Shown here one piece after another: positions 7,057 to 35,952 of a stretch of 36,622 nt of DNA. Position 1 is the stretch's first letter. Every line of letters begins with the position of its first letter. The notes beneath the pieces were generated by a model. It was not told the DNA's origin and ran no database searches. It was given only the letters and a program-made list of their open reading frames with translations. Source of the DNA: Nitrospirales bacterium (GTDB lineage Bacteria; Nitrospirota; Nitrospiria; Nitrospirales; UBA8639); contig BQIW01000043.1 in the NCBI GenBank assembly GCA_021604105.1, forward strand, positions 1 to 36,622. The letters are read 5' to 3'. A program made the position numbers and the translations under genes.

Positions 7057-7221
7057 CTTTATCTCCCCCACAAATCCTGCACCTGGATACCCTACAAAGA
7101 GTGGCAGAAAATGTCCAGAATGTCACAGGATTTTCCCATGATGGTTCCCAACTTCCAAGACGAGGAATCCTTCGCTCAATCGGCTCTCCGGTCAGATGCG
7201 AAGACTCCGCCCCCGATATTT

Positions 7222-7794: not shown

Positions 7795-8017
7795 TCCTTT
7801 CCCTGTATGCTTCCTAAATTGCTGGTCGTTTCAATCTTGCATCAATTAATGGTTCCATGCGATTCCTGGGGGTTCAGATTCAATCTCTCTTGCCCTTTTA
7901 CGGGAATATCGTTACCATTGGCGCCATTCTATCCAGTCCCCGGTTGATTGGTACCCATCTGCACAACTCACATCTCATCTGGTGCAATTTTTATCCCCTT
8001 TTACTCAACCTTGCACC

Positions 8018-14207: not shown

Positions 14208-15161
14208 TCACCCACCCATTGCCGGCATTAAATTTCGCATCAGACTAATAGCACCAGGACCAATAATCACCACCATTAATGCCGGAAAAATAAACAATAT
14301 AAGAGGAATCATCAGTTTTACCGGAAGCTGTGCCCCTCGCTCTTCAGCTTTAAGCCTTCGTTTTAACCGCATCGAATCCGAGTGCACTCGAAGCGCCTGG
14401 CCAATACTCGTACCAAACCGATCCGTCTGAATCAGTAAGGCGACTAAACTTCGAATATCGTCGAGGTCTGTCCGGTTGACCAAATTCCGAAGCCCTTGTT
14501 CCCGGCTTAGACCAGCACGTAGCTCCAAGTTTAACAAGATAAATTCATCCCCAAGATCGGGATGGCCTTGCTTGACTTCCTGCCCCACCCTGGCAATGGC
14601 TTGATCCAGCCCTAACCCCGCTTCTACACACACCACCATCAAATCCAGTGCATCAGGAAACCCATTCACTAAGCGTTCTTTTCGTTTAGTGATGGCACTG
14701 CTCAACCACAGTTGGGGACCATAAAATCCCACCATCATGACACCAATCAACACCATGGGGAAAAACATGGGGTCTTTCCCCTGCATCACCTCGGAACCAA
14801 AAACAAGAAATGTCAGGCCTAGCAGAATGGCCAGGAAAATCCGCGTTCCCAAAAACACCACAATCGCTCTTGGGTTTCGATACCCTGCCGTCGCCAATGA
14901 AGCACGCAAACGAGTGGTGACGGCCTGGTCCTTGGGTTTATTGACCTGGCCCAATCGCTCAAGGAGCTTCATCCCTTGATCTTTCAGGCTCGTATTCTTT
15001 TCATTTTTTTTCGAGGCACTCTGAGAAAGGGATTGTCCCTTCGCCCGTATACTCCAGTCTTTGACCTTTTCCTGAGACTGCATATAACTCCACACACCCC
15101 AGCCGACAACAAGAACCCCCAAAAATACTAAAAGACTGATCAGGAATAATGGATCCATCAT
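14208..15161 (-). CDS. tadC: Tad pilus inner-membrane platform protein TadC
   Basis: A 317-residue polytopic membrane protein with a type II secretion F domain. It has an N-terminal membrane segment, a middle pair (IFLAILLGLTFLVFG and MVLIGVMMVGFYG), the cytoplasmic F domain (FPDALDLMVVCVEAGLGLDQ, with ELRAGLSREQGLRNLVNRT) and a C-terminal pair of segments ending in PALMVVIIGPGAISL. TadC and TadB form the membrane platform on which the TadA ATPase acts. The start at 15161 (AGGG five bases upstream) is nine bases after the tadB stop, which indicates coupled translation. Confidence 0.93.
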   Translation of the reverse strand: MMDPLFLISLLVFLGVLVVGWGVWSYMQSQEKVKDWSIRAKGQSLSQSASKKNEKNTSLKDQGMKLLERLGQVNKPKDQAVTTRLRASLATAGYRNPRAIVVFLGTRIFLAILLGLTFLVFGSEVMQGKDPMFFPMVLIGVMMVGFYGPQLWLSSAITKRKERLVNGFPDALDLMVVCVEAGLGLDQAIARVGQEVKQGHPDLGDEFILLNLELRAGLSREQGLRNLVNRTDLDDIRSLVALLIQTDRFGTSIGQALRVHSDSMRLKRRLKAEERGAQLPVKLMIPLILFIFPALMVVIIGPGAISLMRNLMPAMGG

Positions 15162-15170
15162 GCCATCCCT

Positions 15171-16148
15171 CTAGACTTTAATATCACACATATTTTTCAT
15201 CACATAGGCTCCCACGAGCATTAACAGACCTGAACCCAGAGCCATCATTCGACCCATATCATCCTCAATCAAAATACGCATGTAGGCTTCATTCAAGAAC
15301 CACAATAGAATGCTCATAACAATTGGCATGCAGAATAAAATAATCCCCGACATCCGGCCTTCGGCCGAAAGCGCTTTGACCCGACCAAGCAACTCAAATC
15401 GTTGCCGAATGAGTCGAGAAATCGCTTCAATGATTTCTGCTAAATTTCCCCCTGTTTCTCGTTGGACGACTAAGGCCGTAACAAAGAACTTTAGGTCGGT
15501 ACTGACCACTCTAGCATTTAAATTGTTCATGGCTTGAGGAACATCAATTCCAAACGAAATTTCCTCCACGGTCCGACTAAACTCAGGGCCAATCGGATCT
15601 GGGAATTCATCCCCGATCATCTTCATACCCACGGAAAAGGCATGGCCCGCACGAAGGGCCCGAGCCATCAAATCCAATGCTTCGGGCAATTGGCGTTCAA
15701 ATTCTTTAAAACGACGCTTCCGCTTCCGTTTCATCTGAAGCAAAGGAAGACTCATGCCCAGAAGACTGAGACCAACGGCAGCAAACATCCCATAGTCTTG
15801 AAAGGTGGCGACCAGCAACCCTGCTCCTCCAAGCACTCCGGATAAGAGGAAAAAGACGCCAATCGGCATTTGACTATTGGCCTGTTGAAGCAATTTTTCC
15901 AGCCCCCCCAACGTCGTCATAGAACCCAACAAATTTTGGATCCACGGAATGTCGCTCATTTTCCGATTTCGAAGAATTCCCGGTGCTTCTTGGGTTTTTT
16001 GAAGATCTCCCGGTCTTCCTGATCCACCACGCAAGCGTCGCTTGAGATTCTTATTATGGGGATTCATATACTGGTGGTAGCAGTAATAGGCTCCCTCCAC
16101 AAACAATATAATGGACAGAAATATTCCAATACTAATGGCCACGGTCAT
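15171..16148 (-). CDS. tadB: Tad pilus inner-membrane platform protein TadB
   Basis: 325 residues, four or so membrane segments and one T2SS F domain (FERQLPEALDLMARALRAGHAF, in two stretches, then VQRETGGNLAEIIEAISRLI). Partner of TadC in the pilus assembly platform. The ATG at 16148 is preferred over the upstream TTG at 16163 because GGAGGG lies about seven bases before it and overlaps the longer reading. Directly upstream of tadC and 90 bases downstream of tadA. Confidence 0.93.
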   Translation of the reverse strand: MTVAISIGIFLSIILFVEGAYYCYHQYMNPHNKNLKRRLRGGSGRPGDLQKTQEAPGILRNRKMSDIPWIQNLLGSMTTLGGLEKLLQQANSQMPIGVFFLLSGVLGGAGLLVATFQDYGMFAAVGLSLLGMSLPLLQMKRKRKRRFKEFERQLPEALDLMARALRAGHAFSVGMKMIGDEFPDPIGPEFSRTVEEISFGIDVPQAMNNLNARVVSTDLKFFVTALVVQRETGGNLAEIIEAISRLIRQRFELLGRVKALSAEGRMSGIILFCMPIVMSILLWFLNEAYMRILIEDDMGRMMALGSGLLMLVGAYVMKNMCDIKV

Positions 16149-16238
16149 GATACGCCCTCCCAACCAGATGACGAATCAACAAGAGGAACCACCACAGTTA
16201 AGGCCATCGTGAAAGTGCACCAATTTAAAAAACGACAA

Positions 16239-17564
16239 TTACACTTCATAAATTTTCTCGGGGTCGAAGATACTTGGGTCACAAGAAATTCCTAATGCTT
16301 TAAACCGTTCGACAAATTTCGGCCTTACTCCAGTTGCTCTAAATTGCCCATGCACCTTTCGCTCTTCATCAAGTCCGGTTTGTTGAAACAAGAATATTTC
16401 CTGAAGAGTAATGGTTTCCCCTTCCATCCCCACAATTTCGGACAAACTGGTCATTTTCCGGGATCCATCCGACAAGCGAGTCATTTGGAGAATGACATCG
16501 ATCGCGGAACTGACATAATGGCGAAGCGCCTTCGTAGCCAGATTCAAACCGGCCATGGCCACCAATGTCTCAACCCGCGTCAGGCAGTCGCGTGGGGTAT
16601 TGGCATGAATCGTAGTCAGAGAACCATCATGCCCCGTATTCATGGCTTGAAGCATGTCGAGACATTCCCCACTTCGCACCTCACCCATCACAATTCGATC
16701 CGGCCGCATGCGCAAACAATTTTTGACTAATTCCCGCTGACTCACTTCTCCCCGCCCCTCCACGTTGGGCGGGCGGGTTTCGAGCCGGACCACATGCTCT
16801 TGACGCAATTGTAACTCCGCTGAATCCTCAATCGTCACAATGCGTTCGTCGGAGGGAATAAATCCGGACAGAATATTCAGAATGGTCGTTTTTCCGCAGC
16901 CGGTTCCTCCCGAAATCAGAACATTCAGTCTAGCTTCGACAATCCCTCGAAGGAGCTCTGCAATCTCGGGAGTCAGGGAACGTTTGTCCACCAAATCCGA
17001 AATCTGCAACTTATCCTTAGAAAATTTTCGAATTGAAATGGAAGATCCATTCAGAGCTAATGGCGGAATAATGGCATTGACGCGAGACCCGTCCAACAAC
17101 CGAGCATCTACCATAGGGGACGATTCATCGATTCGACGCCCAACGGCCGACACAATTTTTTCGATAATTTTCCGGAGATGGGCTTCATCCCGAAACTTTA
17201 CATCAGTCAATTGCAGTTTTCCGGCCCGCTCCACATAAATTTGGTCGGCCCGGTTGACCAGGATATCATTGACGGTTTGATCCTGCACTAAGGGTTCAAG
17301 TGGACCTAACCCCATGACTTCATGCTCAATGTCGGCAATCAGACTTTCCCGCTCTTTCATACTGAGAGGGACGGATTCCTTCTCCAACATTTCCTGGACG
17401 AGCTTAGTCAGCTCAACCTTGAGCAGATCGTTATCCAACTTCGCGACAACGGCCAGGTCAAGGGTATCAATCACCTGGCGATGAAGCCGTTCTTTCAATG
17501 GCCCCAGGTTTAACGCCCCCAGGCCCGCTGCCGCACCCACTTCATCCCATTTTGTCTCATACAT
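16239..17564 (-). CDS. tadA: Tad pilus assembly ATPase TadA (CpaF)
   Basis: A 441-residue secretion ATPase of the type II/IV secretion (GspE/VirB11) superfamily that powers Flp pilus extension. Walker A is GGTGCGKT at 219-226; the Walker B region reads [16 protein letters not shown] and the His box region is [17 protein letters not shown]. The N-terminal domain ([20 protein letters not shown]) is the usual CpaF start. GAGG lies eleven bases before the ATG at 17564. It follows tadZ by 36 bases. All catalytic motifs look intact. Confidence 0.95.
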
Positions 17565-17600: not shown

Positions 17601-18854
17601 TTATGCCCCTGAAGGGGATGATTGGACATTCCGACTTTTAAAGGGATTCAACCATCCGGCTAACGATCCCCTGCTTGCCGGTTTTGTCGCTTGGCCGGCA
17701 AACGAATTGGCCAGATCCCGATAGGATTGAGCCACTGCCGACCGGGGAGCCACATCGATCAACGGCTTTCCACTATTCACGGCCTGACTTGCTGAAGGAT
17801 AATCGTTGGGGAGTAGCCAAAAGGCTTTTTGTTTCAAAATTTCTTCCGTCTCTTTCAACACGTCCTGTTCAGCCGATAAGAATCGATTCATCACTAAACG
17901 GATTTTTTCAGCAGGAAATCCCGATCCACGCAACAATTCTAAAATACGCTTCGTTCGGTGAACCACGGGGACCATCAACGTGGAGGTCACCAGGATTAAG
18001 GTCGCAAGCTCCAGTGCCTTTTTTGTCGTCAAATCCAGCACATGTCCACAATCCAGGATGACATAGTCGAAACTGGATTGAAGCAGTCGAAGGGTCGCTT
18101 CCACACAATCCGGACTTAATCGGCCTGTGCTGAGATCGTCATACCCCGAAGGAAGCACTTGAATACCCAATTCCGTTTTGGTCAGGACGCGAATGAGAAA
18201 GGCCTGGTCTAGTCTGGACAAATCCGTCGCAATATCACGGAAGCTATGGTTCGGTTGAAGATCGAGATATAAGGGAAGATCTCCCCCGTGCTGATTGACA
18301 TCCACCAGTGCGACGGACGGGTTGTTCGGCCCTTTTTTGATAGCGGCGGCCAAATTGACCGCGATACTGGTCGTTCCCACTCCACCTTTTCCCCCAAAAA
18401 AAGCAAGAACCTTTCCCGCCGCTCGTTGCCCGTCACCCTGGCGAACCGGAGCCGTAGCTCGCTCCAAAAATCGCATAATCGCATCGGTCACTTCCTGTTT
18501 TTGGAGCGGTTGAGCCAAAAACTCTTTGGCGCCGGCCCGCATGGCTTCCAATAAAATATTTGACTCCAACCGTGCGGCGGTAAGGAATATCTCCATCCCT
18601 TTATTCAATTTCATCATCTCTCGAATAAGGGAAAACGTGCCTTCAGGATTCTCCTCAAGTTCCATAATCATGAGCGCAGGAACTGCTGGTTCCTGGCCAT
18701 CTTTGAGCCGCACACCATCAATTTCCCGAATGAGACTCTCAAGTGTCGCCTTACATTCTGTTGACCGAATGGAAAGCTCAATGACTGGCATATCGGATGC
18801 GGCACTTGAGGTATCCGTGCTTACACGTTTTGGCTTCCAAGTTTTATCCTTCAT
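17601..18854 (-). CDS. tadZ: Tad pilus localisation protein TadZ (CpaE), receiver-like plus MinD-like ATPase
   Basis: 417 residues. Residues 1-135 resemble a receiver domain with degenerate phosphorylation residues (AVPALMIMELEENPEG, then AMRAGAKEFLAQPL). Residues about 147-395 are a MinD/ParA-type ATPase with the deviant Walker A GGKGGVGTTS at 154-163 and VDVNQHGGDLPLYLDL. In the family this protein marks the pole or site where the Tad machine assembles. The ATG at 18854 has GGAGGG eight bases upstream and lies one base after the TAA of the lipoprotein gene, so the two are translationally coupled; the frame is open to 18935 but the coupled start is clearly better. Confidence 0.93.
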   Translation of the reverse strand: MKDKTWKPKRVSTDTSSAASDMPVIELSIRSTECKATLESLIREIDGVRLKDGQEPAVPALMIMELEENPEGTFSLIREMMKLNKGMEIFLTAARLESNILLEAMRAGAKEFLAQPLQKQEVTDAIMRFLERATAPVRQGDGQRAAGKVLAFFGGKGGVGTTSIAVNLAAAIKKGPNNPSVALVDVNQHGGDLPLYLDLQPNHSFRDIATDLSRLDQAFLIRVLTKTELGIQVLPSGYDDLSTGRLSPDCVEATLRLLQSSFDYVILDCGHVLDLTTKKALELATLILVTSTLMVPVVHRTKRILELLRGSGFPAEKIRLVMNRFLSAEQDVLKETEEILKQKAFWLLPNDYPSASQAVNSGKPLIDVAPRSAVAQSYRDLANSFAGQATKPASRGSLAGWLNPFKSRNVQSSPSGA

Positions 18855-18855
18855 G

Positions 18856-19284
18856 TTAATATCCCTCCGAAGAGACCCCGATTGACGCATTGCCGCCTGA
18901 TATACCACCACTTGATGAACCACCGCCCGAGCCACCCTTCAGCTTGAATGGGGAATACGGCGGACTTTGAAACATCAACTGATACCGAGCCAGACTCTGT
19001 TGCAGAGCTTGCGAATCGGCCTCTCCAGCTATGGGGCCGAGATTGTTGGCGGCTGCGGGATTCAGAATTTGATTCTCGAGTCCCTGTCGATATGACAGGC
19101 CATACTCCTCATTCAGATGAACGGGGTGAGGCGCCCATGGGGAGAAGACCTGATCGCTTTTCCCCATAGCGTGTGGCCGTCGTCCGTTGTCCTCGGTCAT
19201 GACTGGCCACACACCACAACCACCCATCCCCACTAAAATCAGGCCGATGAACCCGGCCATTTTCACGATTGATTGGCGTTGCAT
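18856..19284 (-). CDS. Small lipoprotein-like protein of the tad locus (RcpB/CpaD position)
   Basis: 142 residues with an N-terminal hydrophobic segment ending in GMGGC, a weak lipobox, and a Gly/Ser-rich C-terminus. It sits between the secretin and TadZ, where other Tad loci encode CpaD or RcpB, an outer-membrane partner of the secretin, but I see no clear sequence similarity to either. AGGAG lies seven bases before the ATG at 19284. It begins 26 bases after the secretin stop and touches tadZ, so it is part of the operon. Confidence 0.75.
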   Translation of the reverse strand: MQRQSIVKMAGFIGLILVGMGGCGVWPVMTEDNGRRPHAMGKSDQVFSPWAPHPVHLNEEYGLSYRQGLENQILNPAAANNLGPIAGEADSQALQQSLARYQLMFQSPPYSPFKLKGGSGGGSSSGGISGGNASIGVSSEGY

Positions 19285-19310: not shown

Positions 19311-20810
19311 CTATGGGGCCAGATGCCCGAACATCCCTTCCATCCCACCCTTACGGTACGGCATTCTCCCTGCCACCCTCGGTGATCCAAGCGTGTAGGC
19401 CTCGCTCGGCCTGGCGACATTGGACTCGGGAAATACCCCTTCCATATAGCCCATCAGCATCAACTCAAAATCATTGGGTTCCAAATAATGATCTGTGGGC
19501 AATGTCTGCTTCACCATATCCAAAGGTTTCACCAAATGAGGGGTCACAATCACAATCAGTTCGGTCTCATTTTTTTGGAAGGAGGTGCTCCGGAACAACG
19601 CTCCCAAAATCGGTACATCACCGAGGAACGGGTATTTCGCAACCGTTTCCTTGATATTTTCCTGGAGAAGACCTGCAATGGCAAAACTTTGTCCATCACC
19701 CAATTCCACCACAGTCTTGACCCGTCGGGTCGTCAGAGCGGGAATTTGAAATCCTTGTATAACGATGCCATTAGCAAAATCTAATTCTGACACCTCAGGG
19801 TTCACAATCACGGAAATGCGCCCCTCAGAGAGAACGGTGGGGGTAAATTTCAATCCGACCCCATATTCTTTAAATTTAACGGTCACCTGACCGAGTTGCT
19901 GCGGAATTGGAATGGGATATTCTCCTCCAACCAAAAACTCCGCGGCTTGCCCGCTCTCTGCAATCAAGGTCGGTTCAGCTAAGGTTTTCGAGAGAGAATG
20001 TTCTTTCAGCAGGTCTAAAAAGAGAGTCCATAAATCATCACCAATCCCGAATCCTAAAACCAGGTTCGAGGCCAGGGTTCTCACGCTCGGAAACTCCAGA
20101 GTCGTCGTTTGTGAAGATTGTGCATGCGCGAACGGTTCAAAAGCATCAACCGTGGACAAATCATTAATGAGACCGATGGAAAAATCACGGTGATTTTTTT
20201 GAGCCCGTTTAAAATTCACCCCGAGACGCTTCATTAGCCCACGCTGCATTTCCGCGACTTTGACTTCCATCATCACCTGTTGCACGCCGCCCACCTGAAT
20301 AAGATTTATGATTTTATCCGGGGCATAGGGTTCGGCCAGAGTCAACGCTTTGGCCAAGGATTCCATATTGGTGACATTGCCCGCCAGAGTGATGTGCTCA
20401 TGACTGTTCATCACTTGAATGCCGGGTTCATGGGGCAACATCGTATACAGCTGCTCTTTCAATCGAGTCACATCGGGAGAAACTTGGACTTGAAAAACAT
20501 TTGCCACCTGGCCATCTTTGTCCCATAGGGTCAAGGTCGTCGTCCCAACTTCAATCCCGGTCAAATAAATTTGTTTACTGGAGAGCACAATTTGATCCGC
20601 CACTTTAGGGTTGGCGACTGACGCACGTTTAAACGCCGTCTCCCGCTCCACAATTTTTGATTCCCCGACCGTTAGTCGTAGGCTTTGAGGCGCATTGAGG
20701 TGGACCGCCTGAGTAGTGAGACCTTCTCCAAAGGCTCCCGTGTAGCCCGCAAGGACAAGGCCTAGAGCCAACATCATGCTCCTGAATGGAAAACCTCGAG
20801 TCTGATTCAT
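19311..20810 (-). CDS. cpaC: Tad pilus outer-membrane secretin (CpaC/RcpA)
   Basis: A 499-residue secretin that forms the outer-membrane channel for the Flp pilus. It has a cleavable signal (about residues 1-28), an N-terminal pilus/BON-like region (SLRLTVGESKIVERETAFKR) and a C-terminal secretin domain with the typical stretches GGEYPIPIPQ, VGLKFTPTVL, VNPEVSELDF and LLQENIKETVAKYPFLGD. The ATG at 20810 is preceded by AGGAAAGG and AAGG; the frame opens eight codons earlier but the signal peptide fits the shorter form. It lies 46 bases after cpaB. Confidence 0.94.
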   Translation of the reverse strand: MNQTRGFPFRSMMLALGLVLAGYTGAFGEGLTTQAVHLNAPQSLRLTVGESKIVERETAFKRASVANPKVADQIVLSSKQIYLTGIEVGTTTLTLWDKDGQVANVFQVQVSPDVTRLKEQLYTMLPHEPGIQVMNSHEHITLAGNVTNMESLAKALTLAEPYAPDKIINLIQVGGVQQVMMEVKVAEMQRGLMKRLGVNFKRAQKNHRDFSIGLINDLSTVDAFEPFAHAQSSQTTTLEFPSVRTLASNLVLGFGIGDDLWTLFLDLLKEHSLSKTLAEPTLIAESGQAAEFLVGGEYPIPIPQQLGQVTVKFKEYGVGLKFTPTVLSEGRISVIVNPEVSELDFANGIVIQGFQIPALTTRRVKTVVELGDGQSFAIAGLLQENIKETVAKYPFLGDVPILGALFRSTSFQKNETELIVIVTPHLVKPLDMVKQTLPTDHYLEPNDFELMLMGYMEGVFPESNVARPSEAYTLGSPRVAGRMPYRKGGMEGMFGHLAP

Positions 20811-20856
20811 ATCCTTACCTTTCCTAACGATCATCGCGTCACCCTCGACGACCCTC

Positions 20857-21699
20857 TTAAAATTTCATCGTCCTTCGCTCTGTCCCTTGGATCACTTCAA
20901 CCTGCTCCTTCGGTTTTCCCCTTCTAGGCGGCGGAGGAATGAGTTGGTGGGACCGCATCAAATCCTTGAAGTCTGCACCTTTGGTTTTCTTCACCTCAGG
21001 ATTCAGTGGACTCCGTAAGGCCAATCGTAACTTCCCTCCATTTTCGGCCATGGCCAATCTCTCCGCTTCCTCCAACGATACCTCCAGCGTAATGACTTTT
21101 ACGGGAGTAGGCTTTTCCTCTCCAGCCATTCGCTCCATTTGCGTATCGATCGCTAACACCAGCGTGTTTTCCAAAACTACCTTGGTCACTTCCTCCTTTG
21201 TACCGCCATTCCCTTTCTTTTTAGCCCTGGGATCCTCAAAGGTCGCCATGACATCGACCCGATCACCTGGCTGCACAAAACCCGGAAGCCCAACCACTTC
21301 ATTCACTTTCACGGCCATTGCCCGTTTATTGGGGTCCATGACTGCGGAAACACCGCCCGTTTTCACATCAATAGGAGCCAATTTCGATTCTAAAATGGGC
21401 TCATTTTTTTTCAGATTTGTCAGCACGACCCGACCATTTAAGGATGCCGTGTCCTTAAAATGTCCAACAGGGACGCCTTCTTCAGGGTACGTCATCACTC
21501 GAATAGCTTTTTCACCGAGTGGTGTCCCCCAGGGGATATCGGCACTGGCCACCGCAACACTCACACCCTCAATCACCACTTCAGGGGCGTCGACTTCGAT
21601 CATTCGTTGCCCCTGTAGCCACCGATACACCATGACGGTCGTCACCAAGGCAATAATCATCGCGATTCCTAAAAATACGAGTGGACGTTTTTGTCCCAT
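20857..21699 (-). CDS. cpaB: Flp pilus assembly protein CpaB (RcpC)
   Basis: 280 residues, one N-terminal membrane anchor (VFLGIAMIIALVTTVMVYRW), then an SAF/CBM-like domain (VAVASADIPWGTPLGEKAIR, AVKVNEVVGLPGFVQPGDRV) characteristic of CpaB/RcpC, a periplasmic partner of the secretin. GGAGGAAG precedes the ATG at 21699 by about seven bases. It lies directly upstream of the secretin gene, the standard order. Confidence 0.94.
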   Translation of the reverse strand: MGQKRPLVFLGIAMIIALVTTVMVYRWLQGQRMIEVDAPEVVIEGVSVAVASADIPWGTPLGEKAIRVMTYPEEGVPVGHFKDTASLNGRVVLTNLKKNEPILESKLAPIDVKTGGVSAVMDPNKRAMAVKVNEVVGLPGFVQPGDRVDVMATFEDPRAKKKGNGGTKEEVTKVVLENTLVLAIDTQMERMAGEEKPTPVKVITLEVSLEEAERLAMAENGGKLRLALRSPLNPEVKKTKGADFKDLMRSHQLIPPPPRRGKPKEQVEVIQGTERRTMKF

Positions 21700-21878: not shown

Positions 21879-22406
21879 TTACAATACATCATAATAAAAC
21901 AACGTTTTGGCGATCACGGTGCCCAGCCCCAAAACCAGGGCATATCGTAACTTAGGCTCGGTAGAAATTGGTGCGCCAGAAACTGCAATAGTCTTGGTCA
22001 CCTTCAGAGTTGCCAGAAGGAGAAACATCCGATCCCAGGCATGGCGCATACCACCCTGATTCGACAACAATGCTAAACTATAGAGCCCACCCAGTATGGC
22101 AGCAAACGCAAACGCAAATACCACTTGGCCTGGACCCAAAATTGTCCCAATGGCTCCTAACAATTTTACGTCTCCCGCACCCATCCCCCCTTTTAGATAG
22201 AAAAATATCAAGCAGACTAACCCCATGATCAGACCTCCAAGACCGAACAGGAATCCCTCCCAACCATACTCTAAGCTATTCACACCAATTCCGAAGATTG
22301 CCAAAGAACCCGTCAGCCAATTTGGAATCCGCCCCGTCCGAACATCCGTGATCGCTGCCACGATTAACCCTAAGGCTAATCCAGATAACAAAAAGGAAGA
22401 ACTCAT
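21879..22406 (-). CDS. tadV: Prepilin peptidase TadV/CpaA (A24 family)
   Basis: 175 residues, about five membrane segments. The two catalytic aspartates of type IV prepilin peptidases are present: Asp21 in TDVRTGRIPN and Asp79 in GGMGAGDVKLLG. It lacks the N-terminal methylase/zinc domain, as expected of the short TadV/CpaA class, and should cleave the Flp pilins encoded upstream. The ATG at 22406 is chosen; a TTG at 22427 would add seven residues, and neither has an ideal ribosome binding site. First gene of the tad machinery block, 179 bases before cpaB. Confidence 0.9.
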   Translation of the reverse strand: MSSSFLLSGLALGLIVAAITDVRTGRIPNWLTGSLAIFGIGVNSLEYGWEGFLFGLGGLIMGLVCLIFFYLKGGMGAGDVKLLGAIGTILGPGQVVFAFAFAAILGGLYSLALLSNQGGMRHAWDRMFLLLATLKVTKTIAVSGAPISTEPKLRYALVLGLGTVIAKTLFYYDVL

Positions 22407-22850
22407 ATTTTTAAACACTTCCGTCAATTAAATTCATGTGCAAACTTTCAAAAACGTTCCCCGGATGAGGATACCTCCCCATAAGCACGCCACCACTATC
22501 GGTCATGAAGCTATAGCACTCCGAACAGTCCATGTTTCGGTGGGTTGCCTGACTTTCTTAAGACAAGCACTTAACCTTTTGGAGTGCTATGCTCAAAGAA
22601 GAAAATTTTGAGAATCAAAATTTTGGAAGCACCCATTGAAGTATGTTAATTGTATTAGGGACTTGTTTAGGCTGCCCTAGCTACCCAAATACGGTGAGAA
22701 ATGAAACGAGGACTAGAATTTTTACAGAAGAAGAAAAGACAATGTAGTGGCATTCATTCGAGAACAAGATTAAACCCTTCCCAAAGCGGGCCAAGCTTTG
22801 GAGATTGAAGAAATCGCAAAACAGACTCCCAAATTCCCAAACCATCACTC
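22407..22850. other. Leader and upstream region of tadV
   Basis: No gene is supported here. It contains a closed inverted repeat at 22513-22590 (listed separately) about 110 bases upstream of tadV, and the tadV operon promoter is expected here or further upstream. The right part merges into the decayed IS3 element. Confidence 0.4.
22513..22590 (-). promoter_or_regulatory. Candidate structured leader element of tadV
   Basis: The arms ATAGCACTCC (22513-22522) and GGAGTGCTAT (22581-22590) are perfect inverted repeats enclosing 58 bases. Read on the minus strand, an inner AGTC/GACT pair encloses GGCAACCCACCGAAACATG, faintly recalling the GGCAAACC...GAAA part of a c-di-GMP-I aptamer, but the GCAAAGCC block is missing, so it is not called as one. 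Its position 107 bases before tadV fits a leader RNA. Confidence 0.35.
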
Positions 22851-23405
22851 CAAAAGGACCAAGGCATTCGGGCATTGAAGCGCCAAGTGAAAATCCTGGA
22901 GTTGGTAAAAGCTATTTTTCAAAAAGCGCCCCTACACTTTCGGCCAAGAACCTGATGTCCGCTATGCCCTCATCGAACAGTTGCAGTCTGACTATCTCAT
23001 CAATTTGCTGTGTGCCGTGGTAGTCATTCAACAAAGTAGTGATAATGTCCGAAAGTATCGCCCCCATTCTGGCACACCAAGTTCAACTGCGGGTGCAATC
23101 ACATGTTGTGCATCGACACCGCCAAGACGCAGCAAGTTATTACGGACGATGGCGAAAACGTTGGGAATGAGTTGGAAGTCGGCCGGTAAGCTTATGTCGG
23201 CTTTCCACTTATTCAGACAAGCGCCTGAACCTCAACAACCAATGGTGCAGGCTACTTCTCCACCCTGATTAGGAGTTCAGCCCTGAAGTCAGGACCACTG
23301 ACAACACTTGGCGAGAGTCCAGATTGGTCAAAGGCGGAGAGGGAAAGGCCACTGTTGGTGCAATGTCCCGATGGAACAATCATTTCAAAATCTCAAGTCC
23401 GAAGG
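22850..23405 (+). pseudogene. Decayed IS3-family transposase (OrfA end plus OrfB pieces)
   Basis: Fragments in shifting frames match an IS3-family element in order. The OrfA C-terminus reads IRALKRQVKILELVKAIFQK. OrfB begins in the next frame with RYALIEQLQSDYLINLLCA, then VVHRHRQDAASYYGRWRKRW (the conserved YGxRR region), then SRPVSLCRL. Near the end comes RRGKGHCWCNVPMEQSFQNL with KSEG after it, which corresponds to the catalytic-end motif RKGNCxDNAPMESFFxxLKxE. Stops and frameshifts break it and most of the DDE region is missing. It lies opposite to the tad genes, between the pilin genes and tadV. Dead element; no terminal repeats located. Confidence 0.75.
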
Positions 23406-23585
23406 GTTTCCTTCAGGAGATCTAACACCTTTTAGAAAGGCAGTCAGAATATTGGTGCATATATCAGCGCAATTACTATCGGAGCCCGCTGAACAGCTAT
23501 AATAATTACTCCAATCAATAGGTGTAGGAACAGCTCCAGGAACCACTTTATCCAGTGTCCCAATATACTTGCCCACTACAGCCCT
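23385..23585 (-). pseudogene. Possible gene fragment of about 60 codons
   Basis: An open minus-strand stretch starting just after a TAA reads RAVVGKYIGTLDKVVPGAVP and continues with a Cys-containing part (NYYSCSAGSDSNCADICTNI). It looks protein-like, but its last residues are only the antisense of the IS3 remnant. It could be the broken 5' or middle part of a gene interrupted by the element. No family recognised and no good start. Confidence 0.25.
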
Positions 23586-23788
23586 TTAGTGGAACAAAAA
23601 GAGGGAGTAAATCTGGGAAACGAATGGGAATAGATTAACAGCACCGGCAGGACAGGATGTCTAAGAAGGGAAGCCCAGCAAAGTCCGGACCATACAAAAA
23701 CCAGGAGAGGTATAAATAGGGATGAGTGAAAAATATTCTACTGGTGGACCCTCCAACCCCACCTGGAACAATTTGTAGGAGTATGCTG
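23586..23788. other. Noncoding stretch downstream of the Flp pilin genes
   Basis: About 200 bases between the stop of the 67-aa pilin and the gene fragment next to the IS3 remnant. I see no gene and no clear terminator. Confidence 0.35.
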
Positions 23789-23992
23789 TTAACTCCCCAA
23801 GGCCCCCGCAATAAGACCCATAACTTGCGTATACATGTTCCCTACTGCGTTTCCCAAGGCTGCTTGAGCACTCAACGCCGTGGCGCCAATGAGCGAGGCC
23901 AAGAGTGCGTATTCAATCGCCGTGGCACCTTCTTCATCAACAAGGAAGTTTTTTACCCCGTGATGACAATGATTCAGGAGAATTGTCTGCAT
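23789..23992 (-). CDS. flp: Flp family type IVb pilin (67 aa)
   Basis: A short pilin subunit. The processing site motif EEGATAIEYALLASLIG is complete: Gly22 before the cut, Glu27 and Tyr28 after it, followed by the single hydrophobic segment. The leader (22 residues) is rather long. GGGAGG lies eight bases before the ATG at 23992. It follows the 57-aa pilin gene on the same strand by about 155 bases and precedes the tad machinery, so it is a likely substrate of TadV and TadA. Confidence 0.93.
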   Translation of the reverse strand: MQTILLNHCHHGVKNFLVDEEGATAIEYALLASLIGATALSAQAALGNAVGNMYTQVMGLIAGALGS

Positions 23993-24146: not shown

Positions 24147-24320
24147 TTAGCTCGGAGCCGCAACACTTGTGGAAATCGTCGTAAAGGTACCGCTGAGCGC
24201 AGTCCCCACAGCGGTCACGGCCGTGACAATCACTGCAGCGATCAAAGCGGCCAACAACCCATACTCAATAGCGGTGGCTCCCTCATCATCATTCACGAAA
24301 CGCATCACTTGGTTAACCAT
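24147..24320 (-). CDS. flp: Flp family type IVb pilin (57 aa), directly behind the riboswitch
   Basis: A 57-residue protein too short for usual ORF cut-offs. It reads MVNQVMRFVNDDEG then ATAIEYGLLAALIAAVIVTA and ends in a Thr/Ser-rich tail. Gly14 is the prepilin cleavage residue, with Glu19-Tyr20 following, the hallmark of Flp pilins. AAAGGAGA (24334-24327) lies six bases before the ATG, a strong ribosome binding site. It is probably the major pilin, being first after the riboswitch and next to a hairpin. Confidence 0.93.
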   Translation of the reverse strand: MVNQVMRFVNDDEGATAIEYGLLAALIAAVIVTAVTAVGTALSGTFTTISTSVAAPS

Positions 24321-24404: not shown

Positions 24405-24500
24405 CTCGCCGTACCTTCGGCAACCCGGCTATCAGAGACCAACCCTGACCCGTGGTTTTGCGCCCACGCCTTTCGACGTGTTCGCCCTTATCGGGAAGGG
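24405..24500 (-). ncRNA. Cyclic di-GMP-I (GEMM-I) riboswitch upstream of the Flp pilin genes
   Basis: Read on the minus strand the core is present in order: GGGCGAACACGTC, the tetraloop GAAA, GGCGTGGGCGCAAAACCACG, GGTCAG, a short loop, CTGATAGCCGGGTTGCCGAA. This fits the GEMM-I layout of a CAAACC-like 5' block, a helix capped by a GNRA tetraloop (CACGTC/GGCGTG), the GCAAA-CC-CGGG joining segment, a second helix (GGTCAG/CTGAtagCC), and a 3' GGGTTGCCGA strand. A few normally conserved positions differ (GGGCGCAAAACC instead of GGGACGCAAAGCC; GCGAACAC instead of GCAAACC). It lies about 85 bases upstream of the 57-aa pilin. It should sense c-di-GMP and control pilin expression. Confidence 0.85.
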
Positions 24501-24809
24501 GCACCCGACCGAATCCATGTTTCATGGTCATGAATAAATGTTCGTAGACCCAAGGAAATCTCCCATTTCGTATTCTGTGACTCTTTGTTTTCATGCTTCA
24601 TTATCGACCTCTTCAGGGAAAACTTGCCGACGTATTTTGATGAATATGTTTCCAATTGATTACGGGTACAACAATTTGTCTCCCTTTGTTAACCAAGGAG
24701 ATCAAAATAATTCGGAACGTACCTCGAGCACGTAAGGCGGAAGCCGGTTTGGAAGGGTGGTGAGGTTGTCTCCCACCCTTACTCGACAGGTACGACGTGT
24801 GATGGCAAC

Positions 24810-24973
24810 AGGCGTGAGCGACATAGTCGGAATTTGTTTTACCCACCCGACCTACTGATGAGGTCCCACTACTCCACCATTTTTTAGTCATACCCGACAT
24901 TAATAATCAGGCAACCCTCGGTGAGGGTCTTCGGATAGAACTCCGGTTAACTTACGACAGGGATGACGGAGGG
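24810..24973 (+). repeat. 164-nt repeated element, copy A
   Basis: Aligns without net length change to 26950-27113 (copy B). The start AGGCGTGAGCGACAT matches AGGCATGAGCCACAT (18 of 22 columns in the first block), and the last part from CGACATT to TTAACT matches in 43 of 58 columns, followed by the shared TGACGGAGGG. Both copies are in the same orientation, 2,140 bases apart. The first block can form a small hairpin with a GTGA loop. Function unknown; strand given is arbitrary. Confidence 0.6.
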
Positions 24974-25573: not shown

Positions 25574-26584
25574 ATGATGAGAGTGGGAAATATGATATTG
25601 GTAAAGCCTTGGCTATGGCCAGTCGAACGCTTTTTACGCAATACCATTTTAGTATTAGGAGCCTTCGATTTGGGCATGGTTTATATACGCCATATCGGAT
25701 TCGATTGGTTTTCCTATTCCTTTTTTTTCGCTTTGGGAATTTTCATGATTGCCGTGGGACTTTTCTACCGTTCAAGCGGGCGTAGTGAACGTATCTCTAT
25801 GACGTTAATGGCGACCGGGTTGCTTCTTCTGTTTACAATTGTTCTATCAGTTTTTGGTTATCTGTTGCTCCCGCTATGGCGAGAACCCATTGACCCGTTT
25901 CTGGTCCAGGTCGATGCTTGGTTCGGATATTCATGGCCGGACATTGTCCAATTTGCCGGTCGACATCCATTTTTAAATGAATTGACGCGTTATGCCTATT
26001 TATCTTCCATACCACAAATGGCATTACTGTTTATCATTTTAGGATTTGGAGGCAAGCAAAAAGAACTCCATGTCTTCATCCTTTCAATTACCGCTTCAGG
26101 CCTGGCGACGCTTGGGTTTTGGGCGCTGTTTCCGGCATTTGGCACCAGCGTGCTCTATGACATTTCCGGCTCGATTGAACAGGCCGCAAGACCACTTGTT
26201 GGCTCGGCCTACGGTGCCGAATTATTACGTCTAGGAGCTGAAGGGCCTAAATTTATTTCTCCAAGGGATATGGGAGGCCTAGTGGCTTTTCCTTCCTATC
26301 ACACGATCATGGCTATTTTGGCTATGTATTCAGCACGAACCACTCGCTGGTGGTTCCCCATACTGGTCATCATCAATCTGTTCGTCCTTCCAGGAGTGCT
26401 TATCCATGGCGGGCATCACTTGATCGATGTATTCGGCGGATTATTGACTGCCTGTTGCATCATATACGTGGCAAGGCAGGTTGTGACTGGAAATGAAATC
26501 CAGGATGACGGAGTATTTGGCGCCGCCGAACAGGAAATAACGTTTATTAAAAGTTCCTCAGACATGTCGGGATTACACCCGTAG
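25574..26584 (+). CDS. PAP2-superfamily membrane protein (Aur1/Ipt1-like phosphatase/transferase)
   Basis: A 336-residue protein with about six or seven membrane segments. The C-terminal part has the PAP2 motifs GLVAFPSYHT (SxHT-type) and GGHHLIDVFGG (HxxxDV type), which carry the two catalytic histidines and the aspartate of lipid phosphate phosphatases and inositolphosphoryl-transferase-like enzymes; the N-terminal KxxxxxxRP motif is not obvious. The ATG at 25574 has GAGG six bases upstream. It heads a plus-strand group with the cyclase-like and DUF362 genes, though 640 bases separate it from them. Likely acts on a lipid or polyprenyl phosphate at the inner membrane. Confidence 0.8.
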   Translation: MMRVGNMILVKPWLWPVERFLRNTILVLGAFDLGMVYIRHIGFDWFSYSFFFALGIFMIAVGLFYRSSGRSERISMTLMATGLLLLFTIVLSVFGYLLLPLWREPIDPFLVQVDAWFGYSWPDIVQFAGRHPFLNELTRYAYLSSIPQMALLFIILGFGGKQKELHVFILSITASGLATLGFWALFPAFGTSVLYDISGSIEQAARPLVGSAYGAELLRLGAEGPKFISPRDMGGLVAFPSYHTIMAILAMYSARTTRWWFPILVIINLFVLPGVLIHGGHHLIDVFGGLLTACCIIYVARQVVTGNEIQDDGVFGAAEQEITFIKSSSDMSGLHP

Positions 26585-26662
26585 GCCTTATTCCGATGGT
26601 CCCGTCGGTCACAAGTTGCCTCGTTTCGATAAGCACGGAGTTCGACATGATTTTTATTGGCT

Positions 26663-26732
26663 GCCGGCTTAGTACGCCAGGCTTTAAAACGCCGTGACCG
26701 GGCACCCTCTGAAAGCGGGTGAATCTTGTTTT
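26663..26732 (+). terminator. Possible transcription terminators after the PAP2 gene
   Basis: Two hairpins follow the stop codon by 80-120 bases: GCCGGC/GCCAGGC followed by TTTAAAA, and CACCC/GGGTG followed by AATCTTGTTTT. Either could stop transcription on the plus strand. Confidence 0.35.
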
Positions 26733-26949
26733 CCCCCTTTCATGCCACCGCACCAATTCTCCCACCTATCGCCGTCTTTCCGCCGCACTTGCATCGGAAT
26801 CCATCCAGGACGACATATTGTCGGGTAGCACATTCCTAATCTGACCTATCCATACAAAAACGTGAGACCCTCGCCGCTCTGTAGTTGCGTAGGCCGGGTT
26901 AGACTGTCTGCGGTCAAAACCCGATAGACCCATGACCTAGGGAAACGAC

Positions 26950-27113
26950 AGGCATGAGCCACATTTGTCGGTTTACGCTTTGCTCACACGGCCTTCCGAC
27001 GAGGTACCCTTACCCCCACCCTTTTCCGGCCTGCTCGACATTTTTATCGGGAATCCATCGTTGAGGTTCTTCGGATGGATCCAGGCTAACTACCATCGGG
27101 AGTGACGGAGGGG
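26950..27113 (+). repeat. 164-nt repeated element, copy B
   Basis: Partner of 24810-24973. In this copy the first block folds well: CGACA (26946-26950) pairs with TGTCG, enclosing GGC-ATGA-GCC; the later part folds as GGAATCCATC/GATGGATCC around the conserved GAGGTTCTTCG. The element ends 110 bases before the cyclase-like gene, with a TATAAT just after it. Function unknown. Confidence 0.6.
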
Positions 27114-27122
27114 AGGCGCGGG

Positions 27123-27128
27123 TATAAT
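27123..27128 (+). promoter_or_regulatory. Possible -10 box of the cyclase-like gene
   Basis: TATAAT lies about 95 bases upstream of the gene. The best -35 candidate, GTGACG (27102-27107), matches TTGACA in four places with a short 15-base spacer and overlaps the end of repeat copy B. Confidence 0.3.
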
Positions 27129-27223
27129 TAGATCGTGATCTGGTTTTTTAAGGTTCTTCCGTTTTAAACCGAACAACATGAGAGATCACATTTTCAACAT
27201 GTTTTGGTTTCCAATTCTACTCA

Positions 27224-28144
27224 ATGATTCAAGAACCCTTTCGTCATTCCCTTGACCTACTCCATTCCGCTCAACAACCAAATGGGGGATTCCCATATCA
27301 CTTGGGAGAAAATTCCAGGCCCGACGCGACCGCTTGGGCTATTATGGCCCTTTCTGCCTATGCCTTCGATCATGAAAGCTGTAACCGGGGAAGAGCATAT
27401 TTAGCTTCCCAACAGGCGAACGACGGACGCGTGAGCATCTCTCCCTCACACCCGGAGGCATCTTGGCCAACACCTCTCGCCATCTTCGCCTGGGAAAGCA
27501 TTTCCCAGTATCAAGAAGCGCAATCACGCGCTATCGACTATCTGATTGGGTTTACCGGACAACATTTCTCGAACCCTGATCCGTCAATTATTGGCCACGA
27601 CACTTCAATCCCGGGCTGGCCATGGATTGCTGAAACCCATAGCTGGGTCGTGCCCACTGCTCTCGCCCTCCTGGCCTTGCATAAGGTAGGTTTGGGCACT
27701 CACCCTCGTGCTAAGGCCGGCCGACACTTGCTTCTCAATCGTCAATTGCCCAACGGTGGCTGGAATTACGGAAGTACGACGGTATTCAACCGGGAATTAC
27801 CTCCCCTCCCAGAGTGCACGGCCATCGCCTTGCAAGCGTTGGCTGGTCACACGGCAATCCACGAAATAGCACAAAGCCTCCAGTATCTCTCACACGAGCT
27901 TCCTCGCCTCCGGACTCCCATCTCACTCGGCTGGACACTTCTTGGTCTCGGTGCATGGGACTTAAAACCCACGAATACGGAGGAATTGGTCTTGGCCTGC
28001 CTTCAACGTCAAGAGCGATACGGGTCTTATACTCTTCTCTCTCTGGCTCTGCTCTTATGCGGTGCGAACGCACAACAAGGCCTGTATTCCTTATTGCCAG
28101 GACCACTACCACAATCACCCACTTCGTTTGCCCGCCACCAATAA
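27224..28144 (+). CDS. Prenyltransferase/squalene-cyclase-like alpha-toroid protein
   Basis: 306 residues with repeated QxxxGGW/F-type motifs: QQPNGGFPYHLG near the start, QQANDGRVS and RQLPNGGWNYG in the middle. This is the alpha-alpha barrel fold of terpene cyclases and protein prenyltransferase beta subunits. It is about half the length of squalene-hopene cyclase, and the class II acid motif DxDDTA is replaced by SRPDATA, so ordinary polyene cyclisation is doubtful. No signal peptide. The DUF362 gene starts 17 bases after its stop, so the two are an operon. Substrate unknown. Confidence 0.78.
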   Translation: MIQEPFRHSLDLLHSAQQPNGGFPYHLGENSRPDATAWAIMALSAYAFDHESCNRGRAYLASQQANDGRVSISPSHPEASWPTPLAIFAWESISQYQEAQSRAIDYLIGFTGQHFSNPDPSIIGHDTSIPGWPWIAETHSWVVPTALALLALHKVGLGTHPRAKAGRHLLLNRQLPNGGWNYGSTTVFNRELPPLPECTAIALQALAGHTAIHEIAQSLQYLSHELPRLRTPISLGWTLLGLGAWDLKPTNTEELVLACLQRQERYGSYTLLSLALLLCGANAQQGLYSLLPGPLPQSPTSFARHQ

Positions 28145-28161
28145 GGAAAAAGGCAGCTTTC

Positions 28162-29187
28162 ATGACCACCGCTCTTACGCAAAAGGATCAGGTCACGTTG
28201 ACAAGACGACAATTCCTGCAGGCCTGTTTGTTTGGAGGGGGATTAGCTGTCTCAGGATTTTCCCTCCTTCATTGGTTTATGGGCCCGCGTTTGACCGCGC
28301 AGACCTTTATCGGTCAAGCCAAAACATACGAAGCTGATCTTGCGAAACTCATTCGCCAAGGATTCCAAGAATTGGGGATCACCCCATCAGAGATCAAAGG
28401 AAAACGCATTTTATTAAAACCTAATTTGGTTGAACCACACCAATCGTTATCGCATATCAATACCCATCCCCTAGTCGTTCGTGGGGCCGTCGAGACGTTC
28501 CTTTCTATGGGTGCGGGATCTGTCGTCGTAGCTGAAGGGCCCGGACATCGCCACGATACTCTTTTGGTCTTGGAGGAATCCGGCTTGGCAGATGTGCTGT
28601 ACGAAGACCGCATCCCCTTTCAAGATCTGAATACAATGGAAGGGGTAATCATGCCTAACCTGGGTGGGCAGACAAGTCTGACCTCATTGACCTTTCCTCG
28701 AATAGTCCAAGAAGTCGATTGGGTTGTCTCGCTGGCCAAAATGAAAACGCACCATTGGGCTGGAGCGACCCTCTCCATGAAAAATTTTTTTGGCGTGATG
28801 CCCGGAAATTATTACGGATGGCCGAAGAATGTGTTACACCATGCTGGAATCCCACAATCCATTGTGGATATCAATGCCACGCTCAAACCTCATTTTGCCA
28901 TTGTCGACGGCATAATCGGAATGGAAGGGGATGGTCCGATAATGGGGACACCTGCCCATTCCGGAGTCCTTGTTATGGGAAGGAATCTCCCGGCCGTCGA
29001 TGCTACCTGTTGCCGGATTATGGGAATTAATCCAGATAAAATCGAATACCTTCGAAATGCCGACCAGTGGCTAGGCCCCATTCACGAATCGTTAATAGAA
29101 CAACGCGGAGAAGCCTGGAAACAGGTCTACCGCCCTTTCGCCCTGGTCCCGGAGATTCCCGCCCACCAAGGTATTCGTCTCACCTAG
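28162..29187 (+). CDS. Tat-exported DUF362 family protein
   Basis: 341 residues. The N-terminus carries a twin-arginine signal (LTRRQFLQACLFGGGLAVSG), so the folded protein is exported. The body is a DUF362 domain: KRILLKPNLVEPH, GHRHDTLLVLEESGL, DWVVSLAKMKTHHWAGATLS and MKNFFGVMPG, then AIVDGIIGMEGDGPIMG and AVDATCCRIMGI. No ferredoxin-type Cys clusters are visible, unlike some DUF362 proteins. AAGG lies ten bases before the ATG at 28162; the open frame upstream belongs to the previous gene in another reading. Function of the family is not established. Confidence 0.85.
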   Translation: MTTALTQKDQVTLTRRQFLQACLFGGGLAVSGFSLLHWFMGPRLTAQTFIGQAKTYEADLAKLIRQGFQELGITPSEIKGKRILLKPNLVEPHQSLSHINTHPLVVRGAVETFLSMGAGSVVVAEGPGHRHDTLLVLEESGLADVLYEDRIPFQDLNTMEGVIMPNLGGQTSLTSLTFPRIVQEVDWVVSLAKMKTHHWAGATLSMKNFFGVMPGNYYGWPKNVLHHAGIPQSIVDINATLKPHFAIVDGIIGMEGDGPIMGTPAHSGVLVMGRNLPAVDATCCRIMGINPDKIEYLRNADQWLGPIHESLIEQRGEAWKQVYRPFALVPEIPAHQGIRLT

Positions 29188-29475: not shown

Positions 29476-30618
29476 TTATCCATTGACACGCTGAGTCAAA
29501 AATTGGTGGGACTGTGTTTTTCGATCTCCTATTTTCCGTTTGAGATATTCCCTGCTAGGGTTTTCAATCCAGACATAGCACAAGGAGGCCATCGCAATCA
29601 CCAAAAGGAGAATTCCACATAAATGAACCCACAACAAAGGCTGATAAAGATCAGAATTCACTCCTGAATAGTAATCATTGAGTGCATATCGAATGATTTC
29701 CAAGACTGGGTAATGAACCATGTAGATTCCAAATGAGATGGTACCCAAAAATACAACAACCTTATTCCCGAATACTTGAGCAATTCCCGTTTGTGTATTT
29801 GCCAGTGTCACGATAATAAACGGAATAAGGGGATATAGAAACACAATTGGAAGTCCCAATACCAGAAAAACCAAAAATACCAACACAGCAGCCAGACACC
29901 AACGAGAGGCGCGCAAGGAATCCGTAAAAATATCAAAATGCTTCTGAATACAAAACATCATGCACCCTAATATAAATCCATTTAACACCCGGGCTACAGC
30001 AACCCAGCCATAATGCCACTCCCATTTCCATTGGAAGGACAGAATGCTCATCGGGTACACAGTAACCAGGAAGAAAATGATCAGGAGTTGAAAGTCTCTT
30101 CTTCGAATAGGAATCAATAGCTTTATGATGATCGGAAAACAGAGATATGCAAGCCATTCCGCACTCACTGACCAGGCAGGGGTATTCAACGAAGGGTTAA
30201 CCCATATATTTGTGAGTGTGACATTGCGAAGGATATCCCCATACGTAATCTCCTTCTGATCCCAAACTCCAAAGATGGCGGCTCCGAGGAGTACACCCGC
30301 GACAACTAAATACATGGGATAAATTCTGGCCAATCGAAGCGAAAGAAAATTCCCGACTCCATGCAAGGTCAATCGGCTTTCAAATTCGTGCCGATGCACA
30401 TACGTCAAAATGAATCCGCTGAGGACAAAAAATATATCAACCGCATAGACTCCTTGGAGAATAATATTTCTTCCTAACCCCCATTGAATTTTTTCATAGA
30501 ATCCCGGCAAGTATCCATCTGGTTCCCCAAAACACACGTGAAGAAGCACAACCCATATCGCGGCAACCCCTCTGAGACCTGTTAACGTCTGAATATGTTC
30601 CCTGCCCGAAGATAGCAT
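29476..30618 (-). CDS. Acyltransferase 3 family membrane protein (OafA/YrhL-like)
   Basis: 380 residues with about ten membrane segments. It starts with the family signature LTGLRGVAAIWVVLLHV, continues with VDIFFVLSGFILTYVH and LRLARIYPMYLVV, and contains NTPAWSVSAEWLAYL, all typical of acyltransferase 3 enzymes that O-acetylate or otherwise acylate cell-surface sugars. The gene is more AT-rich than its neighbours (for example only 20 of 60 bases are G or C at 29641-29700), which suggests transfer. The ATG at 30618 has a weak GGACC/AGGA upstream. It stands alone. Confidence 0.9.
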   Translation of the reverse strand: MLSSGREHIQTLTGLRGVAAIWVVLLHVCFGEPDGYLPGFYEKIQWGLGRNIILQGVYAVDIFFVLSGFILTYVHRHEFESRLTLHGVGNFLSLRLARIYPMYLVVAGVLLGAAIFGVWDQKEITYGDILRNVTLTNIWVNPSLNTPAWSVSAEWLAYLCFPIIIKLLIPIRRRDFQLLIIFFLVTVYPMSILSFQWKWEWHYGWVAVARVLNGFILGCMMFCIQKHFDIFTDSLRASRWCLAAVLVFLVFLVLGLPIVFLYPLIPFIIVTLANTQTGIAQVFGNKVVVFLGTISFGIYMVHYPVLEIIRYALNDYYSGVNSDLYQPLLWVHLCGILLLVIAMASLCYVWIENPSREYLKRKIGDRKTQSHQFLTQRVNG

Positions 30619-35738: not shown

Positions 35739-35952
35739 AATTACCTCCACCCTGCCGCAAGGAATAGGAAACCACAGGGGAGCATTTAAATAATAAACCC
35801 GATAAGGATATCTTTTGGCAAGGTTTTCTGGACGTCAACCCATCAAAAGAGGTGCCATGATTAGCGCCAATTCCTAACCAACCTACTCACAGAACCGGCA
35901 AGACATTTCGATCCATGGGGGGAAATCTATGCACTTTAACAGGAGACTCCTC

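Follow-up and report, generated by a model that had tools for sequence, protein, structure and literature searches.

Gene layout of the locus

The stretch of DNA analysed here (the window) is a contig of 36,622 nucleotides (G000:C43; BQIW01000043.1, assembly GCA_021604105.1) from a Nitrospirales bacterium whose 4.9 Mb genome is available in 217 contigs. We focused on two genes on its + strand. The first (27224..28144) encodes a half-size cyclase-fold protein of 306 amino acids, here called CYC, which scores 31.5 bits against Pfam SQHop_cyclase_C (cut-off 26.1). The second (28162..29187, starting with ATG) encodes a protein of 341 amino acids with a twin-arginine signal, a member of the DUF362 family (PF04015) with 164.2 bits at a cut-off of 24. 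The two genes are 17 bases apart on the same strand and form an operon. A further + strand gene, for a membrane protein of the PAP2 superfamily (25577..26584, with an ATG at either 25574 or 25577; Pfam PAP2_3, 90.2 bits, cut-off 27), ends 639 bases before CYC. A sequence-only reading of the window had described these three genes on one strand, the last two as an operon with a 17-base gap, and we confirmed this layout. It had also suggested that together they could modify a polyprenyl or terpenoid lipid on both sides of the membrane, and it had taken a lack of recurrence in other genomes as a reason to reject the group.

CYC and DUF362 are a conserved pair

CYC relatives were present in 29 of 97 related genomes. 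At 32 of 33 relative loci (the window included), CYC was followed by a DUF362 gene on the same strand, with gaps of -4 to 55 bases; at the 33rd, L062, CYC ends at the contig end. We then considered a wider set, the best 80 of 118 CYC relatives, with one genome scanned per species. DUF362 came directly after CYC in 78 of these 80 loci from several phyla, and in the two exceptions (L075 and L142) CYC reaches the contig end. The record titles of the wider loci name Nitrospira and its relatives, Deltaproteobacteria groups, Planctomycetota, Verrucomicrobia, Bryobacteraceae and others. The two sets overlap, and their counts are not to be summed. With start codons picked by script, the gap between the genes was at most 50 bases in 73 of the 78 wider loci and exactly -4, an overlap of the two genes, in 21 of them. 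The divergence of CYC correlated with that of DUF362 (r 0.754 over 66 loci, a value reached in none of 2000 permutations), as expected for genes that are inherited together.

The PAP2 gene behaves differently. It lies upstream of the pair in 8 of the 33 relative loci, every one from the same genus, and phmmer detected it in four of the 80 wider loci (L063, L065, L066 and L069), which are on the same contigs as four of those eight. We therefore rejected a three-gene group with PAP2 as the conserved unit. The recurring unit is the pair of the half-size cyclase and the Tat-signal DUF362 protein (Tat, twin-arginine translocation), and the PAP2 gene, a genus-level neighbour, is not part of it. The reason for rejection named by the sequence-only reading thus does not apply to the pair, and it does apply to the trio.

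Several further features were noted in the window and in related genomes. Two similar intergenic stretches, one before PAP2 (24808-24973) and one 112 bases upstream of CYC (26948-27112), share 71% identity over 168 bases, and the version upstream of CYC is 73-89% conserved at that place in loci of the same genus. Rfam searches of the repeated element before CYC gave no match above chance level, and there was no covariation support for it as a structured RNA; a promoter and terminator scan yielded no more than shuffled sequence. Convergent with DUF362 lies a gene for an acyltransferase-3 membrane protein (29476-30618), clustered in 6 of the 33 relative loci. Several family f3 genomes in which no CYC was found carry another DUF362 gene, with an open frame of about 357 amino acids (for example, G065:C1:2137237-2137830).

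The pair is linked to Tad/Flp pilus genes

The commonest recurring neighbours of the pair are genes of the Tad/Flp pilus. At least one Tad family was found near the pair in 22 of the 33 relative loci and in 46 of the 80 wider loci (45 or 46, depending on how frames were cut). In 20 control stretches surrounding larC, from as many CYC-positive genomes, the same profiles detected no Tad family, indicating a genetic linkage of the pair to tad genes beyond chance. The profiles were built from pair loci, which favours those loci; the controls came from the same genomes or from close relatives with the same Tad families. The arrangement of the linked genes varies. In 16 of the 80 wider loci the start of CYC lies 0-98 bases after a TadB/C gene, and in the order's family f3 two TadB/C-type genes stand directly before the pair (L053, L057 and L060). 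At L120, L135 and L140 the pair is followed on its own strand by TadE, TadV or RcpC, and at some loci it is oriented away from the pilin genes.

The presence of the pair also tracks that of the motor ATPase TadA. Within the Nitrospirales (TadA at E <=1e-60), all 29 CYC-positive genomes have TadA compared with 7 of 65 CYC-negative ones (Fisher p 5.6e-18, with related genomes treated as independent), and CYC occurs in none of the 58 genomes without TadA. A similar pattern was seen in a second phylum, that of G210 (record titled Syntrophobacterales), where a search of 297 genomes with TadA at E 1e-40 found CYC in 10, TadA in 68 and both in 8; three of the 68 TadA matches (about 1e-41 to 1e-43) and two of the 10 CYC matches (1e-47 and 1e-43) are weak. 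With the centre genome left out, TadA was present in 7 of 9 CYC-positive genomes versus 60 of 287 others (p 5.7e-4). One of the two exceptions in this phylum, G237 (locus L126), has a TadB/C gene right before CYC.

Some observations weigh against a tie to the Tad pilus. No Tad family was found in 34 of the 80 wider loci within the available DNA, some of it on short contigs. We searched for TadA (E <=1e-40) in 30 genomes whose pair has at most two Tad families nearby, namely, those of 25 of the 35 Tad-less loci (the other 10 are Nitrospirales) and five with one or two Tad families. TadA was detected in 19 of them, in two as fragments or with stops, and 11 gave no match. Nine of the 11 (L076, L104, L107, L108, L121, L129, L131, L141 and L142) have no Tad gene at the locus either, L116 and L126 do have one, and many of the TadA-less genomes are, judging by their titles, incomplete drafts. 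Seven Tad-positive Nitrospirales genomes have no CYC. Five loci of genus g5 (L051, L052, L055, L056 and L058) lie away from Tad genes; that of L052 (G033) is the sole CYC copy found in its genome, and the other four are extra copies.

Besides the Tad genes, the next commonest neighbour is a glycosyltransferase-2 cluster in 15 of the 80 loci (one member scanned). Several further clusters occur in at most nine loci each, and many others resemble shadow frames. Eighteen scanned neighbours from Tad-less loci were a mixed set, several without a match, that includes YfhO, a molybdopterin oxidoreductase, TPR proteins, a transglutaminase, a caspase-like protein, GT87, a sulfatase, a phosphodiesterase, GT2 and DUF5069. 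Among the copies away from Tad, L098 has a caspase-like gene upstream (6448-8763) and L080 a DUF5069 gene downstream (2731-3144).

These data bear on the possibility that the pair serves the envelope in some unrelated way and is passively carried along with large attachment gene clusters. Such a history would accommodate the Tad-less loci, the TadA-less genomes, the copies away from Tad and the recurrent glycosyltransferase-2 cluster, but it sits poorly with the tracking of TadA in two phyla and with the variety of arrangements (behind TadC; before RcpC, TadE or TadV; divergent from the pilins), because a single inherited arrangement does not explain the link. We consider it unlikely. A Tad-related role of the pair is, in our judgement, likely, and the pair is probably an unrecognised accessory of the Tad pilus. 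The copies away from Tad and the genomes without TadA suggest that it is an accessory that may have a second use.

The Tad locus of the window

Tad pili drive surface attachment in many bacteria. The Tad genes of the window all lie on the - strand, and PAP2, CYC and DUF362 are transcribed away from the pilin operon. The locus comprises genes for a TadC-like protein (T2SSF; 14208..15161, Pfam 66.1 bits, with the Tad label taken from context), a TadB-like protein (T2SSF; 15171..16163, 66.9 bits), a TadA/CpaF-like motor ATPase (T2SSE; 16239..17564, 216.8 bits), a TadZ/CpaE-like ATPase (AAA_31; 17601..18935, 37.5 bits), an RcpA/CpaC-like secretin (19311..20834, Pfam Secretin, 147.7 bits), RcpC/CpaB (20857..21699, Pfam RcpC, 106.1 bits) and the prepilin peptidase TadV/CpaA (21879..22427, Peptidase_A24, 73.5 bits). 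The Tad labels beyond the Pfam names are those that we take to apply. The locus also has two pilin genes. Flp pilin 1, of 57 amino acids (24147..24320), scores 62.3 bits against Flp_Fap (cut-off 32.2), and the Flp-like pilin 2, of 67 amino acids (23789..23992), scores 29.9 bits, just below that cut-off, and is 92% identical to the Flp-type open reading frame of a relative. In relatives TadE- and TadG-like genes adjoin the pilin genes; a tblastn search with these genes against the window (22430-23780) found none, only pilin-type open reading frames.

Upstream of the pilin genes, also on the - strand, is a c-di-GMP-I-GGC riboswitch aptamer for cyclic di-GMP (24415..24495; Rfam RF03167, 70.7 bits, gathering threshold 59), and a c-di-GMP-I riboswitch was found in all seven relative loci searched. 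Because the pilin genes lie behind this riboswitch, pilin expression in the window organism is probably set by c-di-GMP. About 5 kb from the pair, the - strand encodes a GGDEF (diguanylate cyclase) protein with PAS and GAF domains (33795-35750).

CYC has a predicted cyclase-like toroid and probably a site of its own

The structural model of CYC (predicted local distance difference test score, pLDDT, 95.3) has twelve long helices in an alpha6/alpha6 toroid. Both the model and its structure matches display the alpha/alpha toroid of class II terpene cyclases: squalene-hopene cyclase (Z 25.2) and drimenyl diphosphate synthase (24.6) match best, followed by a methylmannose polysaccharide hydrolase (22.6), GH76 enzymes (about 21) and the Rab geranylgeranyl transferase beta subunit (20.7). 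With hydrolase and mannanase toroids matching at Z 20-23, the modelled fold leaves the choice between an isoprenoid and a sugar undecided.

The acid motif DxDDTA is absent from CYC, which has RPDATA or a variant in its place. The sequence-only reading had pointed to SRPDATA as the replacement; we found RPDATA at residues 32-37 and established it as a family trait, with D34 in 61, T36 in 60 and W38 in all of 69 sequences. In the sequential register of the structure match, however, the inner helix that we take to bear the acid motif in squalene-hopene cyclase may correspond to W81-P82-T83, and the equation of RPDATA with DxDDTA is therefore uncertain. Other residues are more strictly kept. W38, G68, G131, W132, W134, R173, W180, N181 and G183 are invariant and H125, D126, H139 and Q174 nearly so, suggesting that CYC has a polar, aromatic site of its own.

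CYC scores far below the cut-offs of the NCBIfam cyclase models (hopene_cyclase, 21.6 bits, cut-off 431.1; osq_cycl, 35.1 bits, cut-off 851). On account of these scores and the lack of DxDDTA we rejected a family assignment as a true terpene cyclase, and kept it as a low-ranking alternative. In that alternative CYC would synthesise or alter a terpenoid or polyprenyl lipid, on which PAP2 and DUF362 would act elsewhere in the membrane. The two top structure matches and the weak Pfam and NCBIfam cyclase matches agree with such a role, which is nevertheless very unlikely in view of the missing motif, the distance from the hopene-cyclase model, the matching hydrolase and mannanase toroids and the restriction of PAP2 to one genus. 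The lipid modification proposed by the sequence-only reading finds no support apart from the cyclase-like fold: DxDDTA is missing, toroids of glycosidases and hydrolases match as well, and Tad genes are the most frequent of the recurring neighbours.

By hydropathy, none of 80 CYC proteins has an N-terminal hydrophobic stretch, and 19 of the 80 have an internal one of some kind by the same measure. Twin arginines, in turn, occur within the first 45 residues of 76 of 78 DUF362 proteins, and the sequences fit partners on opposite sides of the membrane. The same contrast, together with the position of CYC directly before DUF362 in all uncut loci, would also suit a CYC that is not an enzyme, either a cytoplasmic chaperone or escort specific to the DUF362 protein, presumably akin to the helical proofreading chaperones of Tat-exported enzymes (REMP-type), or an unsignalled partner that leaves with it via Tat. 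We regard such a role as rather unlikely, because W38, W132, W134, R173, W180 and N181, together with the near-invariant H125, D126, H139 and Q174, would seem to form a site for catalysis or a ligand and more than a mere binding face.

A twin-arginine signal and a predicted LarA fold in the DUF362 protein

The DUF362 protein of the window has twin arginines at residues 15-16, before a hydrophobic stretch, as in Tat substrates. R15 is present in 66 and R16 in all of 67 family sequences. The NCBIfam Tat-signal model TIGR01409 gave 14.5 bits, below its cut-off of 16.7, and the Tat call is therefore based on the conserved arginine pair and the helix that follows it. Hydropathy was used in place of a signal predictor, and just 48 of 78 DUF362 proteins pass by this measure. 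The Tat export named by the sequence-only reading is thus supported by the conserved signal and missed by the dedicated model, and export itself is a prediction.

An AlphaFold2 model of the protein (pLDDT 90.4) retrieved lactate and malate racemases, LarA-like enzymes and 4nar at Foldseek ranks 1-19. Alignment of the model with LarA relatives by VIA-align gave Z 14.9-17.9 over 210-221 residues, and the next family reached 6.2. The DUF362 protein is therefore predicted to have the LarA fold. DUF362 and DUF2088 belong to one Pfam clan according to PMC11770544. As described in PMC7583248, LarA contacts its nickel-pincer nucleotide (NPN) through R75, K184 and H200 and uses D72, H108, H174 and K298 in catalysis. 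We compared the DUF362 protein with LarA homologues of the same phylum and found that H197, K207 and H226 align on an invariant LarA His, Lys and His, taken as H174, K184 and H200, in 30 of 30 alignments; the 30 MAFFT runs reuse the same sequences and thus speak for stability, not significance. All 67 DUF362 sequences have K207 and H226, and all but one, which has a gap there, have H197 (66 of 67). This pattern suggests a LarA-type active site with changes.

Other data count against LarA-like chemistry. The place of LarA R75 is taken by E91 (by counting) and that of D72 by N88, and H129 is one column off the place of H108. Profile comparison of DUF362 with LarA found no relation, and forced hhalign was likewise without result. 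The Lar_N profile matched neither the window protein, which is the only DUF362 protein of its genome, nor any other protein in that genome. Of 94 Nitrospirales genomes, 84 have LarC, irrespective of the pair, which most of the 84 lack; no LarC match was obtained in 5 of the 29 CYC-positive genomes (the drafts G003, G011, G012, G016 and G019). An argument for NPN dependence from the presence of LarC was rejected, since LarC occurs regardless of the pair. The window genome encodes LarC (G000:C84:3727-4857) and LarE (G000:C51:5930-6697), both above cut-off, alongside no Lar_N protein. Taken together, LarA-type chemistry of the DUF362 protein is a tentative proposal, which we think somewhat more doubtful than probable.

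A possible role for the pair at the Tad pilus

We propose that CYC and DUF362 are a two-gene module serving the Tad/Flp pilus or its immediate surroundings. For this statement as a whole, with its inferred parts read loosely, we put the chances at about even. A more specific version can be outlined, in which an enzyme of LarA fold acquires a nickel-pincer or similar cofactor in the cytoplasm, depends on its cyclase-fold partner for maturation or supply and, once exported through Tat, chemically modifies Tad pili or attached glycans in the periplasm; in all its detail we judge it quite unlikely.

Tat exports folded proteins, often with a cofactor. In the module that we propose, the DUF362 protein would reach its folded state in the cytoplasm, where Lys207 may carry the nickel-pincer nucleotide or a related cofactor, and would meet the toroid protein or its substrate there before being exported by Tat. 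In the periplasm it might then act by hydride transfer, isomerising or oxidising a group that resembles a hydroxy acid on a component of the pilus or on an adjacent glycan. The toroid protein may supply or hold the substrate, or escort the enzyme. The glycosyltransferase genes near several loci fit a glycan target and do not show one.

To our knowledge, the accessory genes of Tad pili have been charted well in just a few models. The strict conservation of this pair and its tracking of TadA in the Nitrospirales and in a second phylum make it a specific candidate for a step in maturation or modification. The predicted fold and active-site pattern also offer a functional lead on two groups: DUF362, whose function is not known, and an unnamed branch of half-size cyclase-fold proteins, which would be labelled terpene cyclases by automatic annotation. 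If true, the more specific version outlined above would place a periplasmic branch within the LarA clan and reveal a pilus modification of a new kind.

Comparison with known systems

Our literature searches, from whose coverage most subscription papers were absent, found nothing that joins DUF362 with squalene-hopene cyclase, DUF362 with the Tad pilus, lactate racemase with twin-arginine, or Tad pili with squalene and Nitrospira, and their listings contained no published naming of the CYC or DUF362 gene as a Tad component. One targeted search within PMC12611868 also found nothing.

The DUF362 protein is like LarA in its predicted fold, in the shared Pfam clan (PMC11770544) and in its apparent counterparts of H174, K184 and H200 (LarA roles from PMC7583248). 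It differs from LarA in being unrecognised by Lar_N, in the changed R75 and D72 positions and the shifted H108 counterpart, and in its twin-arginine signal and its length of about 341 amino acids compared with more than 400 in LarA; moreover, DUF362 is without known activity. Another DUF362 branch, NCBIfam Npun_F2552, matches most of the protein with 87.9 bits, far under its cut-off of 500. CYC, for its part, shares the alpha/alpha toroid and weak SQHop_cyclase matches with squalene-hopene and other class II terpene cyclases, but it is a single toroid of about 300 amino acids that lacks DxDDTA and has invariant residues of its own. The Tad/Flp (type IVc) loci in or beside which the pair is found have genes for the motor, TadB/C, secretin, RcpC, prepilin peptidase and Flp pilins. 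The parts are thus of known kinds, and it is their pairing and their tie to Tad that appear new within the literature searched.

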